Of a stretch of DNA of 20,528 nt, positions 6,079-20,528 are shown in pieces. The DNA is from a virus. Each line of letters opens with the position of its first letter. The first letter of the stretch is position 1. The position numbers and the translations under genes were made by a program. The notes below the pieces were generated by a model. That model did not search any database. It saw only the letters and a list, made by a program, of their open reading frames with translations, and was not told the DNA's origin. The stretch lies in IMG/VR virus record IMGVR_UViG_3300042731_004504, positions 1-20,528 of that record. One strand, 5' to 3'.

Positions 6079-6741
6079 ATGAATAAATTTGGTAAATTGA
6101 ATGAACGACAAGTAAAGTTTTGTGAATATTATGTAAAAAATTTAAATGCTAGCTTGTCCGCGAAATTAGCGGGATATAGTGAAAAATCAGCAAGGACAAT
6201 AGGTCCTGAATTACTAAAAAAAGGGAATATAAAGCAAAGGATAAAGAATCTACAAGGCTTTAGACGAATAGACGTTAGAGATCATATAACATTTAATGAT
6301 ATTTTGCTATATCATTTGAAAGTAGCAACAGCAAATCTAGGGGACTATATGGAATTTGGAAGTAATCACAATGGACAATCACACGTAAAGTTGAAAAATA
6401 GTAACAAAGTAGATCTAACAGCGTTAGAGAGCGTGACAGAAGGAAAGGATGGAATTAAAATAAAACTTGTAGATAAAAAACAGTCTCTTGAATTTTTGAA
6501 TAAATATTTAGATCAATTTAAATTAAATCATGCAAATTTCAAAAATATAGAAAATATAGAAGACATAAAGGATTACTTAAATAATCTTTTGAAAAATAGT
6601 GCAGAAACATCAAACCAAGGCATAAGTAATCAAATCGCTATAACATCAAAAATATTAGATTGCTTAAAATCTAACAATGATCAAAAATTAGAAGAAATTG
6701 AAAGAATATTGAAAGAGATAACAGAAGATGAAAAAAGTTAA
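6079..6741 (+). CDS. Terminase small subunit
   Basis: 220 residues. The N-terminus L-N-E-R-Q-V-K-F-C-E-Y-Y (7-18), then N-A-S-L-S-A-K-L-A-G-Y-S (about 23-34) and A-R-T-I-G-P-E-L-L (38-46) is the typical terminase_2-type helix-turn-helix for phage DNA recognition. The middle L-G-D-Y-M-E-F region and the helical, charged C-terminus match the oligomerisation and large-subunit-contact parts of the family. Its role is to bind the packaging site and load the large subunit. It ends 14 bases inside the next gene, the usual terS-terL overlap. AGGCGTG lies before the ATG. Confidence 0.88.
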   Translation: MNKFGKLNERQVKFCEYYVKNLNASLSAKLAGYSEKSARTIGPELLKKGNIKQRIKNLQGFRRIDVRDHITFNDILLYHLKVATANLGDYMEFGSNHNGQSHVKLKNSNKVDLTALESVTEGKDGIKIKLVDKKQSLEFLNKYLDQFKLNHANFKNIENIEDIKDYLNNLLKNSAETSNQGISNQIAITSKILDCLKSNNDQKLEEIERILKEITEDEKS

Positions 6742-8545
6742 TGTTCTTCTAGACAAAGCATTACAACTAAAAAAACTCAATCAAAATACAATTCAAAAAA
6801 ATACAAAAAAAATTGATGATATAGAATTCTTGAAAAAATATATATGGATAATAAATAAAAAAAAAGAAAGACAAAGATTAACATTAAACAATATTCAGTT
6901 AAAAATCGAGGCAAAAATAAAAGAATTAAGGGCAAATGATATACCTCCTCGGATTATTATCTTAAAAGCACGACAAGAGGGAGTAACGACATACAGTCAA
7001 GGGAAAATGATGTCTCAATGTGTGCAAAATAAAGACATGAATTGCTTAATTGTATCACATCAACAAGATTCTACTAATGCGATTTTTTCCAAGACAAAGT
7101 TTATGTATAATAATCTTGATAACAGTGTAAAACCGTTGCAAAAAGCTAGTAATGCAAGAGAGCTTATATTTGACGTACCTAGAAACTATAAAAAAAACGA
7201 TAAAGGGCTAAATAGTAAAATAGTTGTTAAAATCGCTGGAAAAGAGTCCATAGGAAGATCAGATACATATAGTTTTGTCCATCTATCAGAGTTTGCGTTT
7301 TGGTCAGGTAGAGACGATAATAGCCCGCAGCACCAGTTATCGGCAATAATGCAAGCATTACCAAGAAATTTGGATTCGTTGGCAATTATTGAGAGTACAG
7401 CGAAGGGATTTAATGACTTTAAAGATGTATGGGATAAAGCCGTTGCAGGAGAAAATGGATGGTATCCTTTATTTTTCCCGTGGTTTGACGACCCTGATTA
7501 TCGTATCCCAGTAACAGAACCAAATTTCGAAGACACTTTAGACGATTATGAAAAAAAAATAAGAAAAGAATTTAATTTAGATTTAGATCAAATAAATTGG
7601 TATCGATATACAAAAAAAACAGATTGTAATAATGATTATGACAGCATGAAGCAAGAAAATCCGAGTTTTCCAGAAGAAGCATTCATTTTTTCAGGGACTC
7701 CAGTTTTTGACAATAACTTGATAATGAACAGAATAAATTATTTGAAAAATTACTATAAAAAAAATCCTTATATTTCTGGGGAATTTAAATATTACAAAAT
7801 TTTTGAGGAAGAAACAATAAATGTATCTATTACAAAATTTAGAATAAAAGATAAAGAAGATAAAAACTTTTATATAAGAATATATGAAAAACCAATATTA
7901 GGTTATCCATACACGATTGGTGCAGATACAAAGGGAGAAGGAAGAGACTTTTTTACTGCAACGGTTTGCAATTGTATAACAGGCAATACAGTTGCAGTGT
8001 TAAAAAGCAGCTTAAGTAATAGTGTTGAGTTTACAATGCAGTTATATTGCTTAGGTATGTACTACAACGGAGCTCTAATCGGAGTAGAAATAAACTTTAA
8101 CACAAGTCCAATTGAGAGACTTGTTGATTTAAGATACTTTTCAATGTATCAAAGAGAGAGAAAAGACGATTTTACGGGGAAATTACAACCTAAATGGGGA
8201 TGGAAAACAGATAAAATTACTAGACCATTAATGATTGACAATCATATAGCTTTTGTAGATGAGCATATAGAGTGTTTTTTTGATATAGAAACACTTCGAG
8301 AGATGTTGACATTCGTAAAAGATGAAAATGGTAAACCTGACGCCCAGAGCGGGTATCACGATGATCTATTGTTTTCTCATATGATTTCTAGAGAGATACA
8401 GTCTCAAAAAGTTAAAAGAATAGACGTAGACACGAATAAAAGACTAGAAAATATTGAGTTTTCGAGGGAAAATGTTAAAGATGATTCTTTCTCAAAATGT
8501 TTAATAAATAAAATAGAAGAAATTAACAATAAATATGGAGAATAA
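6728..8545 (+). CDS. Terminase large subunit (packaging ATPase/nuclease)
   Basis: 605 residues with both domains. ATPase: a Walker-A-like K-A-R-Q-E-G-V-T-T at 80-88, a Walker-B-like V-H-L-S-E-F-A-F-W at 184-192 (Ser-Glu rather than Asp-Glu), and coupling motif I-I-E-S-T-A at 220-225. Nuclease (RNase H fold): D400 in G-A-D-T-K-G-E-G-R-D, E454 in G-V-E-I-N, and D545/D546 in H-D-D-L-L, the expected acidic triad. S-F-P-E-E-A-F-I-F-S-G between the domains is also typical. It pumps DNA into the prohead through the portal. The ATG is inside the end of terS; no separate strong ribosome site is needed if coupled. Subtype (headful or cos) cannot be told from sequence alone. Confidence 0.95.
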   Translation: MKKVNVLLDKALQLKKLNQNTIQKNTKKIDDIEFLKKYIWIINKKKERQRLTLNNIQLKIEAKIKELRANDIPPRIIILKARQEGVTTYSQGKMMSQCVQNKDMNCLIVSHQQDSTNAIFSKTKFMYNNLDNSVKPLQKASNARELIFDVPRNYKKNDKGLNSKIVVKIAGKESIGRSDTYSFVHLSEFAFWSGRDDNSPQHQLSAIMQALPRNLDSLAIIESTAKGFNDFKDVWDKAVAGENGWYPLFFPWFDDPDYRIPVTEPNFEDTLDDYEKKIRKEFNLDLDQINWYRYTKKTDCNNDYDSMKQENPSFPEEAFIFSGTPVFDNNLIMNRINYLKNYYKKNPYISGEFKYYKIFEEETINVSITKFRIKDKEDKNFYIRIYEKPILGYPYTIGADTKGEGRDFFTATVCNCITGNTVAVLKSSLSNSVEFTMQLYCLGMYYNGALIGVEINFNTSPIERLVDLRYFSMYQRERKDDFTGKLQPKWGWKTDKITRPLMIDNHIAFVDEHIECFFDIETLREMLTFVKDENGKPDAQSGYHDDLLFSHMISREIQSQKVKRIDVDTNKRLENIEFSRENVKDDSFSKCLINKIEEINNKYGE

Positions 8546-9066: not shown

Positions 9067-9354
9067 ATGGATGAACATATATTAAAACATGAAGATGTAG
9101 AGATTAATCTGAAAAGATATGAAGTAAAGAAAAATGGAAAATTTGTAGATATGGCTTATGCTGAATTTTCTGTATTGGTAATGTTAATAGAAAATAAAGA
9201 TAAAGTTGTTTCTAGAAAAGAAATCTTGACGAAAATATGGGACATTGACGACAATTCGAGTATGAGAATTGTTGATGTTGTTATATCAAGATTGAGAAAA
9301 AAAGGATTTGAAAATTTAATAAAGACTAGAAGGAAAGTAGGTTATTATGTTTGA
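9067..9354 (+). CDS. Stand-alone OmpR/PhoB-type winged-helix DNA-binding protein
   Basis: 95 residues, almost exactly one trans_reg_C domain and nothing else. Landmarks: N-terminal four-strand part (I-N-L-K-R-Y-E-V), A-E-F-S-V-L-V-M-L (32-40), V-V-S-R-K-E-I-L-T-K-I-W (47-58), recognition helix M-R-I-V-D-V-V-I-S-R-L-R-K-K (66-79) and wing hairpin I-K-T-R-R-K-V-G-Y-Y (85-94). There is no receiver domain, so control by phosphorylation is not expected in cis. Family knowledge: OmpR-type domains bind direct repeats and contact RNA polymerase. In a phage it may regulate the accessory block or hijack a host regulon. It has its own promoter, and the next ORF overlaps its stop. Confidence 0.88.
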   Translation: MDEHILKHEDVEINLKRYEVKKNGKFVDMAYAEFSVLVMLIENKDKVVSRKEILTKIWDIDDNSSMRIVDVVISRLRKKGFENLIKTRRKVGYYV

Positions 9355-10690: not shown

Positions 10691-11242
10691 ATGGATAAAT
10701 ATATAGGAACAAAATTAATTGAAGCAAAACAAATGAATTTAGGGGATTATATTAAATACAAAGGTTGGACTATTCATGATAATGAGGACCCTAAGACTGA
10801 AGGATATTTAGTAAAATATTCAGATTCTTACGAATCTTGGAGTCCTAGGAATATTTTTGAATATACTTACAAAAAATTAAATATTAATTCTGATATTCCA
10901 GAAATATTAGAACATGATTTAATTACAAATGATAATACTTATGTATCACATGATAAAGAATTATTTAATGCTCCAAATAATTATTTAATTCATGAAAAAA
11001 ACAGTTATGCTATATTAGCAGGAATACATTTCCAAGAAGGACCTGTCGGAGATCGTGGTGTAAATGGTATATTTATGGAAGATTTACTAGCTATTGTTAT
11101 CGACAGATTATATAAATTTCAGGAAAGTGAATTTAAGTGCCGAGAAAATGCAATAGTTATCACAAAATTAGAAGAATCTTTAATGTGGTTAAGGAAAAGG
11201 ACTTTAAATAGACAAAAAAGGAATCACAAGGACTTTAAATAG
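10691..11242 (+). CDS. Phage protein with C-terminal Acb2/Tad1-type cyclic-nucleotide-sponge domain (probable anti-defence)
   Basis: 183 residues in two parts. Residues 3-62 (Y-I-G-T-K-L-I-E-A-K, Y-x-x-Y-K-G-W, E-G-Y-L-V-K-Y, E-S-W-S-P) form an N-terminal module common in phage proteins. Residues about 113-175 match the Acb2/Tad1 hairpin family as I remember it: F-Q-E-G-P-V, G-V-N-G-I-F-M-E-D-L-L-A-I-V-I-D-R-L, F-K-C-R-E-N-A-I-V-I-T-K-L-E-E-S-L-M-W-L and R-K-R-T. Family knowledge: Tad1 and Acb2 proteins sequester the cyclic nucleotide or gcADPR signals of Thoeris and CBASS immunity; binding by this protein is inferred. The C-terminal residues were changed by a 31-bp tandem duplication. The family often ends in an R-R-G-V-E-G-T tail, missing here. 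Confidence 0.75.
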   Translation: MDKYIGTKLIEAKQMNLGDYIKYKGWTIHDNEDPKTEGYLVKYSDSYESWSPRNIFEYTYKKLNINSDIPEILEHDLITNDNTYVSHDKELFNAPNNYLIHEKNSYAILAGIHFQEGPVGDRGVNGIFMEDLLAIVIDRLYKFQESEFKCRENAIVITKLEESLMWLRKRTLNRQKRNHKDFK

Positions 11243-11258
11243 ACAAAAAAGGAATCAC
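11197..11258 (+). repeat. Perfect tandem duplication, 2 x 31 bp
   Basis: Copies 11197-11227 and 11228-11258 are identical. The unit carries the last codons of the sponge-domain gene and the AAAAAAGGA ribosome site of the next gene. As 31 is not a multiple of three, the second copy is read in a shifted frame, giving the tail N-H-K-D-F-K; with a single copy the frame would end N-H-N-E, overlapping the next ATG. Confidence 0.95.
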
Positions 11259-11259
11259 A

Positions 11260-11778
11260 ATGAATAATGAATTATTTAAAATTTTAGAGTTTGACCCTGA
11301 TCTTAATAAAAATTGTGTTGGATGTGGGTATTGTTGCATAAGGGCAATGTGTCGCATTGGTTTAGAAAAATATGGGTTACATGACATTTGCCCTGGACTT
11401 TTTTGGGATGGTAAAAAATATAGATGTAGGCTAGTAAGGAGCAATTACAAGAACATTATTTTAATACTTGCAATCGGAAAAGGATGTTGTAGCAACCTAA
11501 ATACCTGGAGGAAAAATGTTAGAGAAAGAGATAATAAAGAAATTGAAAAAATACTTCAAAAAAGTTGGGTTAATATCAAGGATTTAGTATATGATTTTTT
11601 TGATCTTGCCTACATAACTAGAGTTGGAATATTGAAAGATTTAGAATTGATAAATGAAGAAGAACTTGACATAGAGCATACAAAAATAATAGAAAAAATA
11701 GTAAAGCGAGCTAAAGACAGAGGAAAATTAATTGAATTAAGGGAAAAAATAAAAGAAAATGGATGGAGAAGTAAATAA
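11260..11778 (+). CDS. Cysteine-rich phage protein, YkgJ-like CxxCGxCC motif
   Basis: 172 residues; AAAAAAGGA six bases before the ATG. The N-terminal half holds nine Cys: C-V-G-C-G-Y-C-C (19-26), C31, C44 in C-P-G-L-F-W-D-G, C56 and C76/C77. This resembles the YkgJ-type metal or Fe-S binding pattern (C-x-x-C-G-x-C-C), which also occurs in an uncharacterised phage family next to accessory genes. The C-terminal half is helical and Lys/Glu-rich with no Cys. Likely binds zinc or an Fe-S cluster; activity unknown. It follows the sponge-domain gene and its TAA overlaps the ATG of the remnant that follows. Confidence 0.7.
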   Translation: MNNELFKILEFDPDLNKNCVGCGYCCIRAMCRIGLEKYGLHDICPGLFWDGKKYRCRLVRSNYKNIILILAIGKGCCSNLNTWRKNVRERDNKEIEKILQKSWVNIKDLVYDFFDLAYITRVGILKDLELINEEELDIEHTKIIEKIVKRAKDRGKLIELREKIKENGWRSK

Positions 11779-11867: not shown

Positions 11868-12404
11868 GTGATAATTATTAATACAAAAGATGTACAAAAA
11901 AAAATATATAGTCTAGGGTTAAAGAACATTTTTATTGATGGGTTTAATGGCCCTCAAACAAAAATGTATATAAAGGGAATTCAATATGCAACAGGAATAT
12001 ACGAAGACGGGATAGTAGGGGAGAAAACCATAAAAGCAATGGAAAAGTTGTTGAAAGACAAGAAAGTAAAACATTTCAATGACAAAGAATTTGAGTGTCC
12101 TTGCTGCAAAGAAATAAGAGTAGACTTAGGACTGAAACTATATTTAGAAATTATCAGGAGAAGGTTTAAAAATATTGTTGTCATAAATTCTGGCTATAGA
12201 TGTGATAATCATAACAGAAAAGTTAGAGGGGCTAGGCATAGTCAACATAAAAAAGGAATGGCGGCGGATATAAGAGTGTACAACGTACTTCCTATCAATA
12301 TTTTTAATTTTTGTAAAACATTAAATAGGAAATTTGGGGGGATAGGACAGTATGACGAGTTTGTACATTTTGATGTGAGGAGCGATGAAATTGCTATTTG
12401 GTAA
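11868..12404 (+). CDS. Endolysin: peptidoglycan-binding domain plus M15 peptidase
   Basis: 178 residues. Residues about 8-63 match PG_binding_1 (D-G-F-N-G-P-Q-T near 24-31, E-D-G-I-V-G-E-K-T near 46-54), a cell-wall anchor. Residues about 69-178 form an M15 zinc peptidase: S-G-Y-R-C near 107-111, S-Q-H-K-K-G-M-A-A-D near 124-133 with the His and Asp zinc ligands, and V-H-F-D near 166-169 with the last His. It should cut peptidoglycan peptides at lysis; cytoplasmic, no signal peptide, so it needs a holin. Start is uncertain: the GTG at 11868 overlaps the good AGGTGAT Shine-Dalgarno; an ATA or ATT codon just after it would have better spacing. It ends before a strong terminator. Confidence 0.9.
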   Translation: MIIINTKDVQKKIYSLGLKNIFIDGFNGPQTKMYIKGIQYATGIYEDGIVGEKTIKAMEKLLKDKKVKHFNDKEFECPCCKEIRVDLGLKLYLEIIRRRFKNIVVINSGYRCDNHNRKVRGARHSQHKKGMAADIRVYNVLPINIFNFCKTLNRKFGGIGQYDEFVHFDVRSDEIAIW

Positions 12405-12432
12405 TAAATAAAAAAGAATAATTAAGTTAAAT

Positions 12433-12467
12433 AAAAAAGTAACTGGATTGTATCCAGTTACTTTTTT
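12433..12467 (+). terminator. Strong terminator after the endolysin
   Basis: GTAACTGGA (12439-12447), loop TTGTA, TCCAGTTAC (12453-12461), flanked by A-run and T-run, so it would work in both directions. It ends the accessory/lysis unit directly next to the inverted-repeat element. Confidence 0.92.
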
Positions 12468-12648
12468 ATTTGGGGGCACGGCAAACGCATATGGAAAATC
12501 ATTTAAATTTAAATGCGCTAAATTAGAAATTACAGTCATATATAACGATGATATTCTTTACAAAACAAAGTGTTTTCGCTAATTTTATGTAATTACAGTT
12601 ATTTTATTTGAATGAAATTTTCATATGCGTTTGCCGTGTATTTGGGGG
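12467..12648. mobile_element. 162-bp MITE-like element with 10-bp flanking direct repeats
   Basis: CACGGCAAACGCATATG (12477-12493) is the exact inverse of CATATGCGTTTGCCGTG (12622-12638), and after a one-base slip the arms continue with GGAAAAT/ATTTTC. Immediately outside lie two direct copies of TATTTGGGGG (12467-12476 and 12639-12648), as expected for a target-site duplication. The element (12477-12638) has no ORF and is AT-rich, with a 16-bp perfect palindrome at 12500-12515. It therefore resembles a MITE mobilised in trans. The right flank GGGGG supplies the ribosome site of the beta-helix gene. An invertible regulatory segment is the main alternative. Confidence 0.75.
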
Positions 12649-12656
12649 TGATTACT

Positions 12657-14579
12657 ATGGGAAAATTTAAATGGGCATACAATACAAGAAATACAGACGG
12701 ACAACCAAGGATTTATAAAATTGCTGCTACAACAGCAATTGAAAAAGGTGATGTTGTTAGAAAAGCATCTGGACTAATTGTTGGAATTGGTGACACAGAT
12801 CAAAGTATAGTATACCAGGGTGTTTCAGCAGAAGATCACGACGGAAGCACTACAGGGAGAGACACAGGAAATGAAATTAAAATATATGATAATCCTGATG
12901 ATGTTTTCGCGTATACTCCAAGAAATACTTGTACTGCAACTGGCGGTTCTACAACAACATTTGTAGACAGTAATTTAAAATTTCTTAATGATGATGATCT
13001 AAATGGTGGATTTATAATAATTGTAAGTTGTGCTGCTAGTAGCAGTTTAAACGGTAAAAAAGTAAAAATATCTGATTATACCGCAAGCACAGGGACAATT
13101 ACCTTAGCTGAAACATTAGCGTATACGCTAGCTGCTGATGACACATGTTACCTTTGTCCTGGACCACAGGTAATAGGAACCCACATTCATAATTTATACT
13201 CAAATGGAGAAATCGATTGGGAATCAGCAGGTGGAGAAGCTATAGAAATATTTGATATTGATGTTAATACATTTACTGTATTTGTAAAGATAAGGCAACA
13301 CTTAAATGCTAACTATGCAACTGCTAGAAGTGCTATATATCTACATGAATTTGGAATAATTGGAGATGGAACAGAAGAAACAACAAATATTCAAAAAGCT
13401 ATAAATTATTGTTGCTCAAATGAAAAAATTCTAAGGCTAGACAGAAACAAGACTTATAGAATGCAAAAAGTTGATTTAGCTTCAAATTTAAATTTAGATG
13501 GGAATCAATCTACATTAAAGCTTATTGATGATATGGAAATAGAGTCGGCTTATGATTATAGGTTTAGTATTTTTAGATGTCTATCAAATAATAATATAAA
13601 AATTAAAAATACGATTTTTGATGGAAATGCAGCAAATGTATTTACTGTAAATCCAACTTTTTCGAGTCATAACACTGGGATTATATTACAAGATACATAT
13701 AACGTAGATATAGAAAATTGCAAATTTAATAATTTTCTAAATACAGGGATACAATCTGCACAAATAACGACTTTTGGAGTAAGAAACTTATATATAAACC
13801 GTTGCTCTTTCTACAATGACACAGTTTACACTCCAGGACGAGGTATACAAATCACTCAAGGAGACAACGAGAATATTAGGATTCTAAACTGCAATATTGA
13901 GAATATGGGAGAACATGGAATTGTATGTTATCCTGGGACGGTAAAAGTAAAGATAATTGGTAATGTAATTGAAAACACTGGATTACAACTAACGGGAGCT
14001 TATTCAAATGGTGCTTCTATCAAGTTGAATGGTGTTGAAGATGGCAATATAAACATGAATAGTTGCTATAACAGCAGGTATGCAATGATACATATTACAG
14101 GAACAGGAAGCAAAAATATAAACATTGAAAATAATGTAATCGAAGGTGCTGATGTACAAAGGACAGGGGGAGGAATAACAGTAGAGACACCCTCGGAAAA
14201 TGTACGAATAACAAACAATACACTGGAATACCACAAAATAAAAACTCTTGGAGACTATGCATATATAGATGGTATAAGTGTAAGTGCTTCAAATGTACAA
14301 ATTTTTAACAATGTGATTTACAACTGTGAAAATGGGATAAATACAGCAGATTATATACTAATCGATGGAAATTACATAGATACAATTGTAGATAAAGGAA
14401 TCAAAGTAGATGGTGACTACAATGTAATATCAAAAAACATATGTTCTAATTGCGATTATGGAATTTATAATGCTGCGGATGGAACGCTATTAATTGCAAA
14501 TCAATATAGCAGTAATACAACAGCAGATTTCCATAAAGCTTCGGGAACAGCTTCAAACGCTGATTTTTCAGCAGTTTAA
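12657..14579 (+). CDS. Capsid decoration domain fused to right-handed beta-helix (spike-like) protein
   Basis: 640 residues from the ATG at 12657; GGGGGTG is upstream and the N-terminus then aligns with the free decoration protein at 18140. The frame is open upstream from 12612, but that part lies within the inverted-repeat element. Residues 1-222 match the whole 18140-18823 protein (W-A-Y-N-T, A-I-E-K-G-x-V-V, V-F-A-Y-T-P-R, T-A-T-G-G-S-T-T-T-F). Residues about 231-640 begin with E-F-G-I-I-G-D-G-T-E-E-T-T-N-I-Q-K-A-I, typical of pectate-lyase-type phage spikes, followed by many N-I-x-I-x-N-x-x-I/F rungs. A likely role is carbohydrate binding or cleavage displayed on the virion; catalytic residues cannot be identified. 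The fusion puts the helix on a capsid-binding domain. Confidence 0.85.
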   Translation: MGKFKWAYNTRNTDGQPRIYKIAATTAIEKGDVVRKASGLIVGIGDTDQSIVYQGVSAEDHDGSTTGRDTGNEIKIYDNPDDVFAYTPRNTCTATGGSTTTFVDSNLKFLNDDDLNGGFIIIVSCAASSSLNGKKVKISDYTASTGTITLAETLAYTLAADDTCYLCPGPQVIGTHIHNLYSNGEIDWESAGGEAIEIFDIDVNTFTVFVKIRQHLNANYATARSAIYLHEFGIIGDGTEETTNIQKAINYCCSNEKILRLDRNKTYRMQKVDLASNLNLDGNQSTLKLIDDMEIESAYDYRFSIFRCLSNNNIKIKNTIFDGNAANVFTVNPTFSSHNTGIILQDTYNVDIENCKFNNFLNTGIQSAQITTFGVRNLYINRCSFYNDTVYTPGRGIQITQGDNENIRILNCNIENMGEHGIVCYPGTVKVKIIGNVIENTGLQLTGAYSNGASIKLNGVEDGNINMNSCYNSRYAMIHITGTGSKNINIENNVIEGADVQRTGGGITVETPSENVRITNNTLEYHKIKTLGDYAYIDGISVSASNVQIFNNVIYNCENGINTADYILIDGNYIDTIVDKGIKVDGDYNVISKNICSNCDYGIYNAADGTLLIANQYSSNTTADFHKASGTASNADFSAV

Positions 14580-14594
14580 AGGGGGGAACAATAA

Positions 14595-14939
14595 ATGGGA
14601 TTAAATCAAAAACCGCGGGGCAAAAAAGTTCTGTTAATGTCTGGAATAACAGCAACAACTACAAGTTCAAATCAAAAGGCTAACGGACACAATGCGATAA
14701 GAATAGACTTTAGAATTACAGTAGGTTCAGGGACGTGGACAATTAAAATACAAAACAAGAGTGTTACAGGTGCATATATTGACGCATATGACCATAACGG
14801 GAATCAAATGTATATAAATGGAGCAACGGCAGATAAAAGTCAAGTTTTCCTCTATTTAGCAGATGATTTTCGTATTGTAGCTACAGAAGACGGTGACGGT
14901 GCTACCGTATCAGTGTCATATCAAGTGTTTAGCGTGTAA
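14595..14939 (+). CDS. Small beta-rich probable virion protein
   Basis: 114 residues with AAAGGGGGG before the ATG. Sequence is Thr/Gly/Ser/Asn-rich with alternating hydrophobic strands (A-I-R-I-D-F-R-I-T-V, T-W-T-I-K-I-Q, Y-I-D-A-Y-D, F-R-I-V-A-T, A-T-V-S-V-S-Y-Q-V-F), suggesting a beta sandwich. No cysteines or signal. The lack of Lys/Ile-rich helical bias seen in the early genes, and its place between the beta-helix fusion and portal, point to a virion component such as a head fiber or accessory decoration. I do not recognise the family. Confidence 0.7.
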   Translation: MGLNQKPRGKKVLLMSGITATTTSSNQKANGHNAIRIDFRITVGSGTWTIKIQNKSVTGAYIDAYDHNGNQMYINGATADKSQVFLYLADDFRIVATEDGDGATVSVSYQVFSV

Positions 14940-14951
14940 GAGGGTGAAAAA

Positions 14952-16934
14952 ATGTTTTCTTGGACAAAAAAAACTAAAAAAGAAATAGAAGCTATAAGAG
15001 ATGATAGCAGCATAGAAGAAGTACCACAATTTACCGAAGAAGAACAGGAACTAACATCAAGGATAATAGCTGATTATATGGATAGTTCATCTTCAAGAAA
15101 ATCATCAGACGAGACAGGAAGATCAATTGAGGATAATTGGGAAGACGATTATAAACTATATAAAGGTAAAGGACTGCAATGGTCGACTACTTTTGCGTAC
15201 AGATCGAAAAAAGCAATGTCAAATAGACCAAATTCAGAAGACAATTTTATTTTCAATACTATAGAAGTACAAAAATCTAACATAACAGCTAATATACCAG
15301 AAATTAACATTGGTGGAGTTGAAGATTCTGATAATGAAATTGCTGATAAACTAACTTTTGCTTCTCGATTCAATGATGAAAAAAATAAATTTAGAGAGAC
15401 TTTTAAAAAATGGGTCCATGATTTTTGTACAAGTGGCCCAACAATTGGTTATGTTGCGTGGGACAATAGCTGGATAGGTGGAAGAGGAGCAAAAAGATGG
15501 ATAGGTGATGTGAGATTATTAAGAGTAGCAAAGGAAGAGATATATTTTGACCCTGCCATCCTGGATTTAGAAGAAAATTTGCAAGATTGTGGATATATAA
15601 TCAGAAGAGTAAGAAAGAAACTACAATATATTAGACAAAATTGGGAAAATGGGAAATATGTTGGAAATCAATACAATGAAGATGAGTATGTAGATGAAGG
15701 AGCTAACCCAGAGAGCACTTATTTGATTGAATACTGGCATAGAGGATATCCTTATCATATGACTAAGGAAAGAGAAAAAGAACTTAAAGAAACAGCAAAA
15801 AGAGTGTCTTTAGAAGATGGTTATAAAGCTAAAGATTATGAAGATGCGGCAAAAGGTGTATTAGAAGGAATACATGTAGCTTATTTTGCAGATGATGTAT
15901 TACTAGAGTACAGGGCGTATGAGTATGAGGATGGGTTATACCCATTTGTTTTCACTACGAAATATCAAGACGATAAGTGTCAATGGGGATTCGGTGAAAT
16001 AAGAAATCTTTCAATCCCACAGGTAATGCATAATAAAGCAGACGAAATAGAGTTGGAAGCAATGAGTAAGGAAGGTCTAGGAGGACATTATTATCAAAAA
16101 GGTGCTATAAGTAAAGGGCAAAAGAATTTAATACTAGAAAATAGCGCTCTAGGCGGGCAATGGTTTGAAGTAGATAATGTAGCTCAAATAAAACCTAGAG
16201 AGGGAGTACGAGTGCCAAACAGCATTCGAGAATACAAGCAAAACAAAGAAAGGATTATAAATGCAATACAACCAGCCACGACGATACAACAAGGTATTTC
16301 CCCGGGGTCGAATGTACCTTATAGCACTGTTAAAGAATTAGGTAATCGAACCGATGTAAGAATGAAGCAAGTTTCAGACAAATTAGAAGATTTTTTAATT
16401 AAAATAAATCAGCTAAGAATTAACAGATTTGAACAATTTTATACAGAAGAACGATATTACAGAATTCGTGGAGCAGACAATAAAATAACTCAAGGGACTT
16501 TAAGAAATGATGAAATGAAAAAAACATGGGTAAGAGACACTGTCCAACAAGAAAATCCAACAACTGGGTTAATGGAGCAAAAAGATTTAATAGAAACATT
16601 TGTGCCTGAATTTGACATTAAAGTTACTATAATGAGTGAGAAGCCTACTGATCGAAATTATTATACTCAATTAGCAAATGTTCTCTACGACAAGCAGCTA
16701 TTGTCCCCAGAGGACTTTTATTTTTGTTTGGAAGAAGGGAAACTTCCACCAATTAAGGATATTCTTAAACATTTATACGCGAGACAACCAATTTTGGCAG
16801 TTCTGTCTAAAATACAGGAATTACCTGAAGAAATACAGCAACAAATTCTAGACACTTTGAAACAATCAATACAGCAAGCACAACAGACTCAAATGATGTC
16901 TATACAAAATCAAAATATGAATGGAGAAATGTAA
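14952..16934 (+). CDS. Portal protein
   Basis: 660 residues, between the small virion protein and scaffold/coat genes. An acidic start (E-E-V-P-Q-F-T-E-E-E) leads into a body with portal-type blocks: N-I-T-A-N-I-P-E-I (about 111-119), V-A-W-D-N-S-W (172-178), F-D-P-A-I-L-D (198-204), Y-L-I-E-Y-W-H-R-G (about 256-264), Y-P-F-V-F-T-T-K-Y (332-340), W-G-F-G-E-I-R-N-L (347-355), then a long helical part and a Gln-rich tail (640-655). The length and layout suit P22-like or long clostridial portals. It forms the dodecameric ring that docks the terminase. GAGGGTG precedes the ATG. Position and size make the call firm; subfamily is uncertain. Confidence 0.88.
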   Translation: MFSWTKKTKKEIEAIRDDSSIEEVPQFTEEEQELTSRIIADYMDSSSSRKSSDETGRSIEDNWEDDYKLYKGKGLQWSTTFAYRSKKAMSNRPNSEDNFIFNTIEVQKSNITANIPEINIGGVEDSDNEIADKLTFASRFNDEKNKFRETFKKWVHDFCTSGPTIGYVAWDNSWIGGRGAKRWIGDVRLLRVAKEEIYFDPAILDLEENLQDCGYIIRRVRKKLQYIRQNWENGKYVGNQYNEDEYVDEGANPESTYLIEYWHRGYPYHMTKEREKELKETAKRVSLEDGYKAKDYEDAAKGVLEGIHVAYFADDVLLEYRAYEYEDGLYPFVFTTKYQDDKCQWGFGEIRNLSIPQVMHNKADEIELEAMSKEGLGGHYYQKGAISKGQKNLILENSALGGQWFEVDNVAQIKPREGVRVPNSIREYKQNKERIINAIQPATTIQQGISPGSNVPYSTVKELGNRTDVRMKQVSDKLEDFLIKINQLRINRFEQFYTEERYYRIRGADNKITQGTLRNDEMKKTWVRDTVQQENPTTGLMEQKDLIETFVPEFDIKVTIMSEKPTDRNYYTQLANVLYDKQLLSPEDFYFCLEEGKLPPIKDILKHLYARQPILAVLSKIQELPEEIQQQILDTLKQSIQQAQQTQMMSIQNQNMNGEM

Positions 16935-17248: not shown

Positions 17249-17269
17249 ATTATGAAAGGAATAAATAAC

Positions 17270-18124
17270 ATGGATGAAGATAAAAACTATGAAAACGATA
17301 GTCAAGAGAATGTCGTGGATTCTCAGAATGAAGAAACTGAGCATATAGGTTCAGATTCACAGGAAAATCTTGATACAGAATCTAATGAACAAGCGGAAAA
17401 AAATCAGGAAGTCGCTGAAACTGATACATTAGAACAAGATCAAGAAGAAGGAAAAGAAGAAGAAACTCAGTCTAAAGAAGATAATGCAATATATAAAAAA
17501 ATGAGACTGAGAGCAGAACAAGAAGCAAAAGAGAAATTTGACAAAGAAAGAGAAAAATTAAGAGCAGAAAAGGAAGAACTTAGCAGATTAAGGCAAGAAA
17601 GAGAAAGTTATAACATTGAAAAGAAAATTAAATCTGAGTTACTGACTGAAGATAATATACAGCAAGTAGAATACAATCAAAATGTATCTAGAGAAATAGC
17701 CATGAAGTTGCTAGAATCTGAAGCTAATCAATTGATATCTTCTGAAAAACAAAAATTAACTGAGAGATTTAATTCATTACAGCAGCAAAAAAAAGAAATT
17801 TCAAAAAGGAAATTTTATAATTTGATAGAGGATGAAGTTGATCGGATAGTACAAACTAATCCAAACCTGGATTATAATACGGCTTATTCTTATGTAGTTG
17901 GCTCTAAGTACGAAGAATTGCAAGAAAAGTTAGATAAAGATTCTGAGTCTAGAACAGTAGCAAATATTCAAGACAGAATGAAAAGGCAACCTGTTACATC
18001 AAATGCACAAACAAAAAAAGAAGAAGGTTATAAACTGTCAAAAGAAGGACAGGAAATGGCTAATGTTTTTGGGATTGACCCAAAAGCGGTTAGCCAGCGA
18101 GTTTACAAAAATAGACGTAAGTAA
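17270..18124 (+). CDS. Capsid scaffolding protein
   Basis: 284 residues from the ATG at 17270 (AAAGGA nine bases upstream); an in-frame ATG at 17252 precedes that site and is less likely. The N-terminus (about 1-75) is extremely acidic and low-complexity (Glu, Gln, Asp, Asn, Ser). About 80-115 form a charged coiled coil (R-A-E-Q-E-A-K-E-K-F, R-L-R-Q-E-R-E), and more helix follows to about 250. The last 30 residues are basic, ending Y-K-N-R-R-K, as expected for the part that contacts coat protein. Acidic-helical-basic order and location between portal and coat genes identify the family type. A role in assembling the prohead and then leaving is known for such proteins, inferred here. Confidence 0.85.
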   Translation: MDEDKNYENDSQENVVDSQNEETEHIGSDSQENLDTESNEQAEKNQEVAETDTLEQDQEEGKEEETQSKEDNAIYKKMRLRAEQEAKEKFDKEREKLRAEKEELSRLRQERESYNIEKKIKSELLTEDNIQQVEYNQNVSREIAMKLLESEANQLISSEKQKLTERFNSLQQQKKEISKRKFYNLIEDEVDRIVQTNPNLDYNTAYSYVVGSKYEELQEKLDKDSESRTVANIQDRMKRQPVTSNAQTKKEEGYKLSKEGQEMANVFGIDPKAVSQRVYKNRRK

Positions 18125-18139
18125 GGAGTGTGATTTAAA

Positions 18140-18823
18140 ATGTCTAAACATTTCAGATGGGCATACAATACAGCAGGAAGAGCAGGGCAACCAAGGGAGC
18201 TTGAAATAGCTAGCGCGACAGCTATTGAAAAAGGAGAAGTTGTAAAAGTAACAAGTGGGTTGATTGTTGCAATCGGAGATACAGACCAAGACGATCCAGT
18301 AAAAGGTGTTGCAGCAGAAGATCACGACGGGAGTACATCTGGAAGACAGTCAGGAACAAAAATAAAAGTACACGACGACCCAAACGATGTCTTCGCGTAT
18401 ACTCCAAGAATTGTTTGTACTGCAACTGGCGGTTCTACAACAACATTCGTAGATAGTAATTTACAATTTGCTAATGACGATGATCTAAACGGTGGATTTT
18501 TGCATATTGTAAGTTGTGCAGCAGATTCAACATTAAACGGAAAAATAGTGAAAATTTCTGATTATACAGCAAGCACAGGAACGGTAACGCTAGCAGAAAC
18601 ATTATCTGCTACATTAGCAGCTAGCGATACAGCGTACATTTGCCCTGGTCCAATTGCGAGAGGAAGTCATAATTGGAATCTAAACAGCGACGGAACAGAT
18701 GTAAGCTGGGAGGATAGTTCAGCTGGGGAAGCTTTAGAATTATTTGATGTAGACCCAAACACGTTTACAGTGTTCTTTAAATTCAGATTGCACTTAAACG
18801 GTAATTATCCAATTGCTGTTTAA
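18140..18823 (+). CDS. Capsid decoration protein
   Basis: 227 residues with AAGGAGTGTGAT before the ATG. It consists of a DUF2190/gpD-like module (about 20-90: A-T-A-I-E-K-G-E-V-V-K-V-T-S-G-L-I-V, V-K-G-V-A-A-E-D-H-D-G), and a Thr/Ser-rich insert (about 93-170). It lies directly before the coat gene, as decoration (cement) proteins often do, so it probably binds the outer surface of the capsid. The whole protein is repeated as residues 1-222 of the beta-helix fusion at 12657. No beta-helix here: it stops exactly where the fusion diverges. A terminator follows. Confidence 0.82.
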   Translation: MSKHFRWAYNTAGRAGQPRELEIASATAIEKGEVVKVTSGLIVAIGDTDQDDPVKGVAAEDHDGSTSGRQSGTKIKVHDDPNDVFAYTPRIVCTATGGSTTTFVDSNLQFANDDDLNGGFLHIVSCAADSTLNGKIVKISDYTASTGTVTLAETLSATLAASDTAYICPGPIARGSHNWNLNSDGTDVSWEDSSAGEALELFDVDPNTFTVFFKFRLHLNGNYPIAV

Positions 18824-18903: not shown

Positions 18904-19800
18904 ATGGCATTAACAGAACAACAGTTTTTAGAATTAGAAGGCAGCATTCAAGAATTATGGGAAACGGCAAACAAATCTAGTAAAGATTACCTGCCATTAA
19001 TGTTTGCTATGCCTAAGTCGAAAAGAGCGAGAGAACTACATCAATCGATGGGTACAATGGGAAGAATGCAAGCATTCAATGGTTCTGTGTTTTACGATGA
19101 AATCGAATTGGGTTATGAAAAAGAATACAGGCATGGTGCATTCACGACAGGGATAGCAATTGATTGGAGGCTTTACGATGATCAAGAATATAACAAAATA
19201 AAAACAAAAGTAAATGATATAAATTATTCAGTTTACAAGTCACTGCAATACGACGGTGCTAGCGTATTTAATAATGCTTTTACAGACGCAAGTGATTATC
19301 ATGGACCAGATGGAGTCCCACTTTGCTCCGCAAGCCATCATCTTGTAAGTGGGGATGATGCTCAAAACAACACTGGAACTGATGATATGACTATTGACGC
19401 TATAGATACAATCCAACAAGCAGGCATGGGATTTAAAGATAATCGTGGGGATATAATGCCGGTTGAATTCGACACGATACTATGTGGTACATACTGGATG
19501 AAAGAAGCAAAACAAATTTGTGGAAGTGAAAAAGAACCATATACTTCAGATAATCAGAAAAATGTAATGACAGAATTGAGCTATATAATAAATCCGTGGA
19601 TAACTGGTAGAAAATGGTTTATGTTATCTTCTAGGTTAGCTAAAGATGGAAAAGGATTAAATTTCTACATGAGACAAAATCCTAAAAATATCGAAAGAGA
19701 CTCAACATTTGACGAATTAGTACTAAAATGGAGAGCAGTTGGCCGTTGGTCTTATGGATGGGATAATTTTTATTGTACATATGGAAACAATGCAGCATAA
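18904..19800 (+). CDS. Major capsid protein (HK97-fold, Mu gpT-like type)
   Basis: 298 residues from the ATG at 18904; AAAGGAG is nine bases upstream. An in-frame TTG at 18895 abuts that site and is rejected. It contains a central D-G-V-P-L-C-S-A-S-H-H region (near 136-146) and L-C-G-T-Y-W-M (near 195-201) that resemble the Mu gpT-type head subunit (Lfs-x-x-H-p-l pattern). N-terminal part helical (E-L-W-E-T-A-N), then E-loop-like Gly/charged region. Place (after scaffold and decoration) and size also fit a coat protein. It would form the icosahedral shell with the portal at one vertex. There is no obvious delta-domain extension since a separate scaffold is present. Confidence 0.88.
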   Translation: MALTEQQFLELEGSIQELWETANKSSKDYLPLMFAMPKSKRARELHQSMGTMGRMQAFNGSVFYDEIELGYEKEYRHGAFTTGIAIDWRLYDDQEYNKIKTKVNDINYSVYKSLQYDGASVFNNAFTDASDYHGPDGVPLCSASHHLVSGDDAQNNTGTDDMTIDAIDTIQQAGMGFKDNRGDIMPVEFDTILCGTYWMKEAKQICGSEKEPYTSDNQKNVMTELSYIINPWITGRKWFMLSSRLAKDGKGLNFYMRQNPKNIERDSTFDELVLKWRAVGRWSYGWDNFYCTYGNNAA

Positions 19801-19870: not shown

Positions 19871-20528
19871 ATGGCAAATAACGGTAAGTACGGAAGGCAA
19901 TTTGAGTATAAGTATAGTCATTTTGGACAAGATACTTATGGTCACGATATAAAAGCATTTGGAGACACAACTGGAAAATACTTTTTATGGGATGCAAGTG
20001 CCAACACATTCACTATTGTTGGCACTTTAACTTTAGATGGGACATTTAACGCTGATAATATAGCATTAATAGACGCTGAAACGCTTACATTTGGCACTGG
20101 TTCTGATGTCACAATACAATGGGACGGAACAAACATGATTATTGCAGCAGCAACAGATGACTCATTGATTGAAATTGGCGACTCAGCAGCAACACAAAAA
20201 TCATTCGATTTGAAATGGTATGCAAATGAGGCAAATGGAGCTAGTTATCTTTACGCGGATGCAAGTGAAAACTTAATATACACAACTGGAGTAGACTTGC
20301 AATTTAAAGATAGTGACTATTTAGTATTTGGTACAGGAGCAGGAGCAACCGGGGATGTAGGTATTACCTGGGACGGTACAAACTTGATTGTAAGTGCCGT
20401 AGCAGACGATACACTTATAGAGATAGGTGATAGTGCAGCTACACAGTTAAGTTTTGATCTTAAATGGTATGCAAATGAAAATAATGGAGCTAGTTACTTG
20501 TATTGTGATGCAAGCGAAAACTTAATAT
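19871..20528 (+). CDS. Tandem-repeat beta-rich structural protein, 3' end outside window
   Basis: The ATG at 19871 follows AGAAGGTG; the frame is open to the right edge, giving 219 residues of a longer protein. A unique N-terminal part (1-70, with F-G-D-T-T-G-K-Y-F-L-W-D-A-S near 30-43) leads into an 83-residue repeat: F-G-T-G-x(n)-W-D-G-T-N, L-I-E-I-G-D-S-A-A-T-Q, S-F-D-L-K-W-Y-A-N-E, N-G-A-S-Y-L-Y and D-A-S-E-N-L-I occur twice, and the window ends inside the second copy. The strands and W-D-G-T motif suggest a beta-solenoid or stacked-sandwich virion protein (head fiber or cell-facing). A function in DNA metabolism is unlikely. I recognise the repeat style from phage structural proteins but cannot name the family. 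Confidence 0.8.
   Translation, partial: MANNGKYGRQFEYKYSHFGQDTYGHDIKAFGDTTGKYFLWDASANTFTIVGTLTLDGTFNADNIALIDAETLTFGTGSDVTIQWDGTNMIIAAATDDSLIEIGDSAATQKSFDLKWYANEANGASYLYADASENLIYTTGVDLQFKDSDYLVFGTGAGATGDVGITWDGTNLIVSAVADDTLIEIGDSAATQLSFDLKWYANENNGASYLYCDASENLI

Follow-up and report, generated by a model that had tools for sequence, protein, structure and literature searches.

In phage phi29, the head fibre protein gp8.5 combines within one chain a decoration-type base, which is bound to the capsid, and a projecting spike that has been implicated in attachment to cells (PMC7602432). The capsid turrets of HFTV1, made of gp30 and gp31, present a trimeric deacetylase-like domain on the capsid and have been proposed to meet the host surface (PMC12494034). 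Trimers of a cement protein, gp1, sit at the quasi-threefold axes in GP4, of which gp2 is the capsid protein (PMC9698820), and in TW1 the capsid-stabilizing gene 56 lies directly before coat gene 57 (PMC7602432). Here we describe a viral gene in which a copy of a decoration-like protein is fused to a beta-helix of the tailspike type, while the free protein is retained in its place before the capsid gene.

The window analysed is an entire virus contig of 20,528 bases, from an uncultured, probably short-tailed bacterial virus. Its late genes are arranged in the order terminase small subunit, terminase large subunit, several small genes, M15 endolysin, fused gene, small beta-rich gene, portal, scaffold-like gene, free decoration-like gene, major capsid gene and an open, repeat-rich gene. 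The contig ends shortly 3' of the capsid gene, with the tail genes lying beyond it. The main features are:

6079-6741: terminase small subunit
6728-8545: terminase large subunit
11868-12404: M15 endolysin
12429-12471, plus strand: terminator-like hairpin 3' of the M15 endolysin gene, a 20-nt perfect inverted repeat with a T run
12467-12476, unstranded: left copy of the 10-bp direct repeat TATTTGGGGG (target-site duplication)
12477-12638, unstranded: MITE-like element of 162 bp, its terminal inverted repeats perfect over 17 bp and its 38-nt arms 79% complementary
12639-12648, unstranded: right copy of the direct repeat, in which lies the fused gene's Shine-Dalgarno-like G run
12657-13322, plus strand: decoration-like domain of the fused protein, residues 1-222, 68% identical to the free copy
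13323-14579, plus strand: right-handed beta-helix spike module, approximately residues 223-640, delimited by Pfam, a tail spike match and structural alignments
14595-14939, plus strand: small beta-rich protein of 114 aa, directly 3' of the fused gene after a 15-bp gap
14952-16934, plus strand: P22-like portal protein (Pfam P22_portal, 6.6e-23; PHROG 156, 4e-34)
17252-18124, plus strand: scaffold-like protein, a charged coiled-coil, assigned by position and composition
18140-18823, plus strand: free decoration-like protein of 227 aa, between the scaffold-like and major capsid genes
18904-19800, plus strand: major capsid protein (tblastn; PHROG head protein, 4e-6)

Several other features of the window were noted. 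The 114-aa protein, which gave no significant match in family and phage searches, adjoins the fused gene downstream and is a possible partner of its product; the scaffold-like protein likewise matched no family in the PHROG search. The open-ended protein after the capsid gene (19874-20528) is virion-like and contains a repeat, about 83 aa long, that reads TIQWDGTN...DLKWYANEANGASYLY; its copies are spaced at 249 nt and are 72% identical in DNA. Between the terminase and portal genes lies a stand-alone OmpR/PhoB-type DNA-binding domain (9067-9354; Trans_reg_C, E 1.3e-18). The protein encoded at 10691-11242 possibly carries an anti-defence domain, by a sub-threshold match to Pfam Acb2_Tad1_hairpin (E 1.3e-4, 22.6 bits against a cut-off of 27), and an exact 31-bp tandem duplication (11197-11258) spans the 3' end of its gene. 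Also in the late region, 11260-11778 encodes a cysteine-rich protein whose C-terminal domain is of the GAAD (GTPase-associated adaptor) type (E 6e-11). Near the start of the window, a gene-start segment is present twice (1020-1124 and 1590-1691; 66 nt, 85% identical, same RBS context), flanking the ORF at 1151-1600, and the pair resembles a duplication or insertion scar.

The fused ORF (12657-14579) is open and in frame, encodes 640 aa, and is preceded by an RBS-like GGGGGTG at 12644-12650. It precedes the portal gene, unlike the free copy, which lies directly before the capsid gene. The preliminary description of this DNA had claimed that the N-terminal domain repeats the free protein, and BLASTP bears this out: residues 4-223 align with residues 5-226 of the free protein with 152 of 222 positions identical (68%), 2 gap columns and E 7e-107. 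The genes themselves are about 70-80% identical in register, the copies lying 5486 bp apart. It had further placed the start of the beta-helix at the point where the free protein stops; this proved correct to within a few residues, the tail spike match starting at residue 219 and the structural alignments of the C-terminal model at about residue 222-226.

The C-terminal module has a right-handed beta-helix fold, of the kind seen in tailspikes and polysaccharide lyases. It opens with an N-terminal cap motif, FGIIGDGTEETTNIQKAI, and matches Pfam Beta_helix (8.3e-16, 58.4 bits against a cut-off of 25.9) and NosD (5.6e-7), while a Vibrio phage tail spike protein aligns to residues 219-607 (E 1e-4), beginning at the junction. 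A model of residues 219-640 predicted from the single sequence has a pLDDT of 49 overall and of 60-79 across much of the core. Foldseek returned weak matches to the PDB, the best of them a tailspike (E 1.7e-3), and among viral models mostly tail or beta-helix proteins. After realignment the model gave Z scores of 20-23 to PfbA, RbmB, AlgE, the Sf6 tailspike, phi29 gp12 and K5A lyase, a set of polysaccharide-active proteins and adhesins. The module may be carbohydrate-active. A fold in common with enzymes is no proof of catalysis, and the module may bind without cleaving; the model is too uncertain for placing active-site residues.

We consider it rather probable that the fused gene encodes a trimeric, capsid-anchored spike, held on the head by its decoration domain. 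The N-terminal domain, a duplicated and diverged presumed cement protein, would dock on the same class of capsid-lattice sites as the free protein, most likely as a trimer, and the beta-helix would point away from the capsid to bind, perhaps also cleave, a polysaccharide on the host surface or in its biofilm. Expression of the free copy from the head operon would give heads on which most cement trimers are plain and some bear spikes. The beta-helices of known tailspikes form trimers and cement proteins of the GP4 type are trimeric as well, so that the decoration base and the beta-helix would match in symmetry. The preliminary description also proposed that the spike is borne by the head "instead of" the tail and that the free and fused forms compete for the same sites; both may apply to such virions.

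A more specific version, which we advance only tentatively, is that a polysaccharide-cutting beta-helix of the tailspike type has been moved to the capsid by means of the duplicated cement protein, giving heads with a tunable mix of plain and enzyme-bearing trimers. If so, duplication of a coat protein and addition of a spike would be a simple route for shifting receptor-binding or depolymerase activity from tail to head. The virus would offer a natural case of a large trimeric sugar-binding module on a capsid, and an adsorptive role of heads would become testable in one protein.

Alternatively, the fused protein could be the tailspike of this phage, the copied domain serving as an adaptor by which an ordinary trimeric spike is joined to the portal vertex or to the tail. 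We regard this as unlikely. Its beta-helix is like those of the tailspikes of P22-like podophages (Sf6, HK620), the portal is P22-like, the fused gene lies close to the gene for it, and the contig shows no second spike. However, the tail genes of such phages follow the capsid gene and thus fall off this contig, so the lack of another spike on it means nothing; and the N-terminal domain, for which Pfam and PHROG searches gave no match to a known tail-attachment family, matches a pre-capsid protein instead. With the contig stopping short of the tail genes, we give a location on the tail a low but real probability.

The gene for the free protein occupies the classic decoration place, within the head module and immediately 5' of the capsid gene. 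The capsid gene itself has tblastn matches (E 2e-7 to 1e-10) to capsid/head proteins of HTVC023P, 023Pt_psg01 and Pag-Yong1. Phages related through this gene (Pelagibacter phage HTVC023P, phage 023Pt_psg01, Planktothrix phage Pag-Yong1 and Alcaligenes phage QDWS535), and further relatives, have a gene of 170-218 codons at the pre-capsid place, which is conserved in eight podophage-like genomes. When a profile of eight of these genes was aligned with the fused/free pair by hhalign, a score of 37.8 was obtained (P 3.7e-5, a single-comparison value). None of 300 column shuffles reached this score (best 24.1), four neighbouring gene families from these phages scored 10.6-20.2 against the pair, and the match survived all eight drop-one tests. 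HMMER searches with the pre-capsid family alone detected neither the fused nor the free protein. Landmarks common to the family and to both copies are V-x-D-D/N-P-x-x-V/I-F and a C-terminal strand V-x-V-K-I-x-x-H. In sequence searches that included the PDB, no solved or named decoration protein matched the decoration-like domain, and none of the PDB sequence searches found a solved structure for the pre-capsid family. Weak PHROG matches of the domain were to head decoration (E 0.018) and virion structural families. The AlphaFold model of the free protein, built from a two-sequence input, has a pLDDT of 38, too low for fold claims such as assignment to one of the known cement folds (beta-tulip, Ig-like or OB). 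TW1 gp56 was considered as a relative of the domain and rejected, there being no sequence match. Gene position and homology to these uncharacterised pre-capsid genes together support a putative role of the free protein as a capsid decoration (cement) protein.

A second alternative is that the pre-capsid protein is some other head component or a trimerisation/assembly domain, the fused form being displayed elsewhere or the copied domain serving only as a base for spike folding. This is improbable in our view. Decoration function is indeed deduced from position and from an uncharacterised family (phrog_37556, unknown function), but in GP4 (gp1/gp2, PMC9698820) and TW1 (gp56/gp57, PMC7602432) the capsid gene is immediately preceded by a cement gene, the pre-capsid place is kept in eight distant genomes, and the weak PHROG matches given above fall in families of head decoration and virion structure.

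Comparison of the N-terminal domain with the free copy gave dN 0.25 and dS 1.06 (saturated in parts), a dN/dS of about 0.23, which implies constraint on the decoration-like domain; the two copies, to judge from their codons, represent an old duplication under purifying selection. Silent sites in codons 84-101 show unusual similarity, with 16 consecutive identical codons at conserved residues and 33 identical bases (permutation p 0.011), which hints at local gene conversion and is suggestive only. Pre-capsid relatives occupy one place per record in the nine matched records, and are unfused in those examined. An assembly chimera, or a decaying recombinant without a role, is a most improbable source of the fusion, which does come from one metagenomic contig only, no further example having turned up, and from copies having a 33-bp identical tract in common, but whose ORF is intact over 640 codons in DNA of 31-35% GC behind an upstream RBS, and whose junction lies outside any sequence common to both copies, so that a repeat-driven misjoin cannot have produced it and misassembly is unlikely, given also that the N-terminal domain is under purifying selection.

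The preliminary description had also pointed to an inserted element beside the fused gene. The element is real: 162 bp with terminal inverted repeats, flanked by the direct repeat TATTTGGGGG, which occurs only twice in the window (at 12467 and 12639), and situated downstream of the endolysin terminator, ahead of the fused gene's start codon. As the maker of the fusion it was rejected, since it sits in the leader and ends 18 bp before the start codon, its target duplication including the RBS. The insertion may alter expression of the fused gene. The earlier interpretation is supported in part: for the fusion, for the decoration-type gene position and for the carbohydrate-active-type beta-helix (by sequence, profile and fold). 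The inserted element does not account for the fusion.

Other examples were sought in viral contigs, genome contigs, phages and, with the fused protein, plasmids, by scans that reach mainly close relatives. Neither the fusion nor the decoration-like domain was found elsewhere in these. Capsid and portal searches in viral contigs gave no matches. Terminase searches in viral contigs gave two 62% relatives, on short contigs with no head genes beyond the portal, and six remote relatives, and the decoration-like domain was absent from the contigs of all of these. No published case of a decoration/beta-helix fusion was found in the open-access literature, most subscription journals being outside this scope.

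Among described systems, the pre-capsid genes of HTVC023P, QDWS535, CRP-901 and relatives (phrog_37556) share the genomic place of the free gene and are homologous by profile to the decoration-like domain; they are single-copy and unfused in the records examined, and are without an inserted segment of about 80 aa that this domain contains. GP4 gp1 resembles the free protein in that its gene is numbered directly before the capsid gene; it lacks a spike module, and the parallel is one of gene place and of presumed role. The tailspikes of P22-like phages (Sf6, HK620), phi29 gp12 and K5A lyase have a right-handed beta-helix as here (Z about 20-22), whereas their attachment to the tail is through other N-terminal domains. 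With the HFTV1 turrets the fused protein would have in common a carbohydrate-active-type trimer on the capsid, but in that archaeal siphovirus base and head are separate proteins located at hexamer centres, and no beta-helix is involved. In domain layout a close parallel is phi29 gp8.5, whose single chain also comprises a decoration-type base and a spike that projects, and docking on the head may likewise be common to both. The spike of gp8.5 is an alpha-helical coil, however, whereas that of the fused protein is a beta-helix with no coiled-coil; the base of gp8.5 has a beta-tulip fold (PMC7602432), and no free paralogue of it is described (PMC7602432), whereas here one is present. With moderate confidence, we assign the fusion to the head-fibre/decorated-capsid kind and not to a new category.
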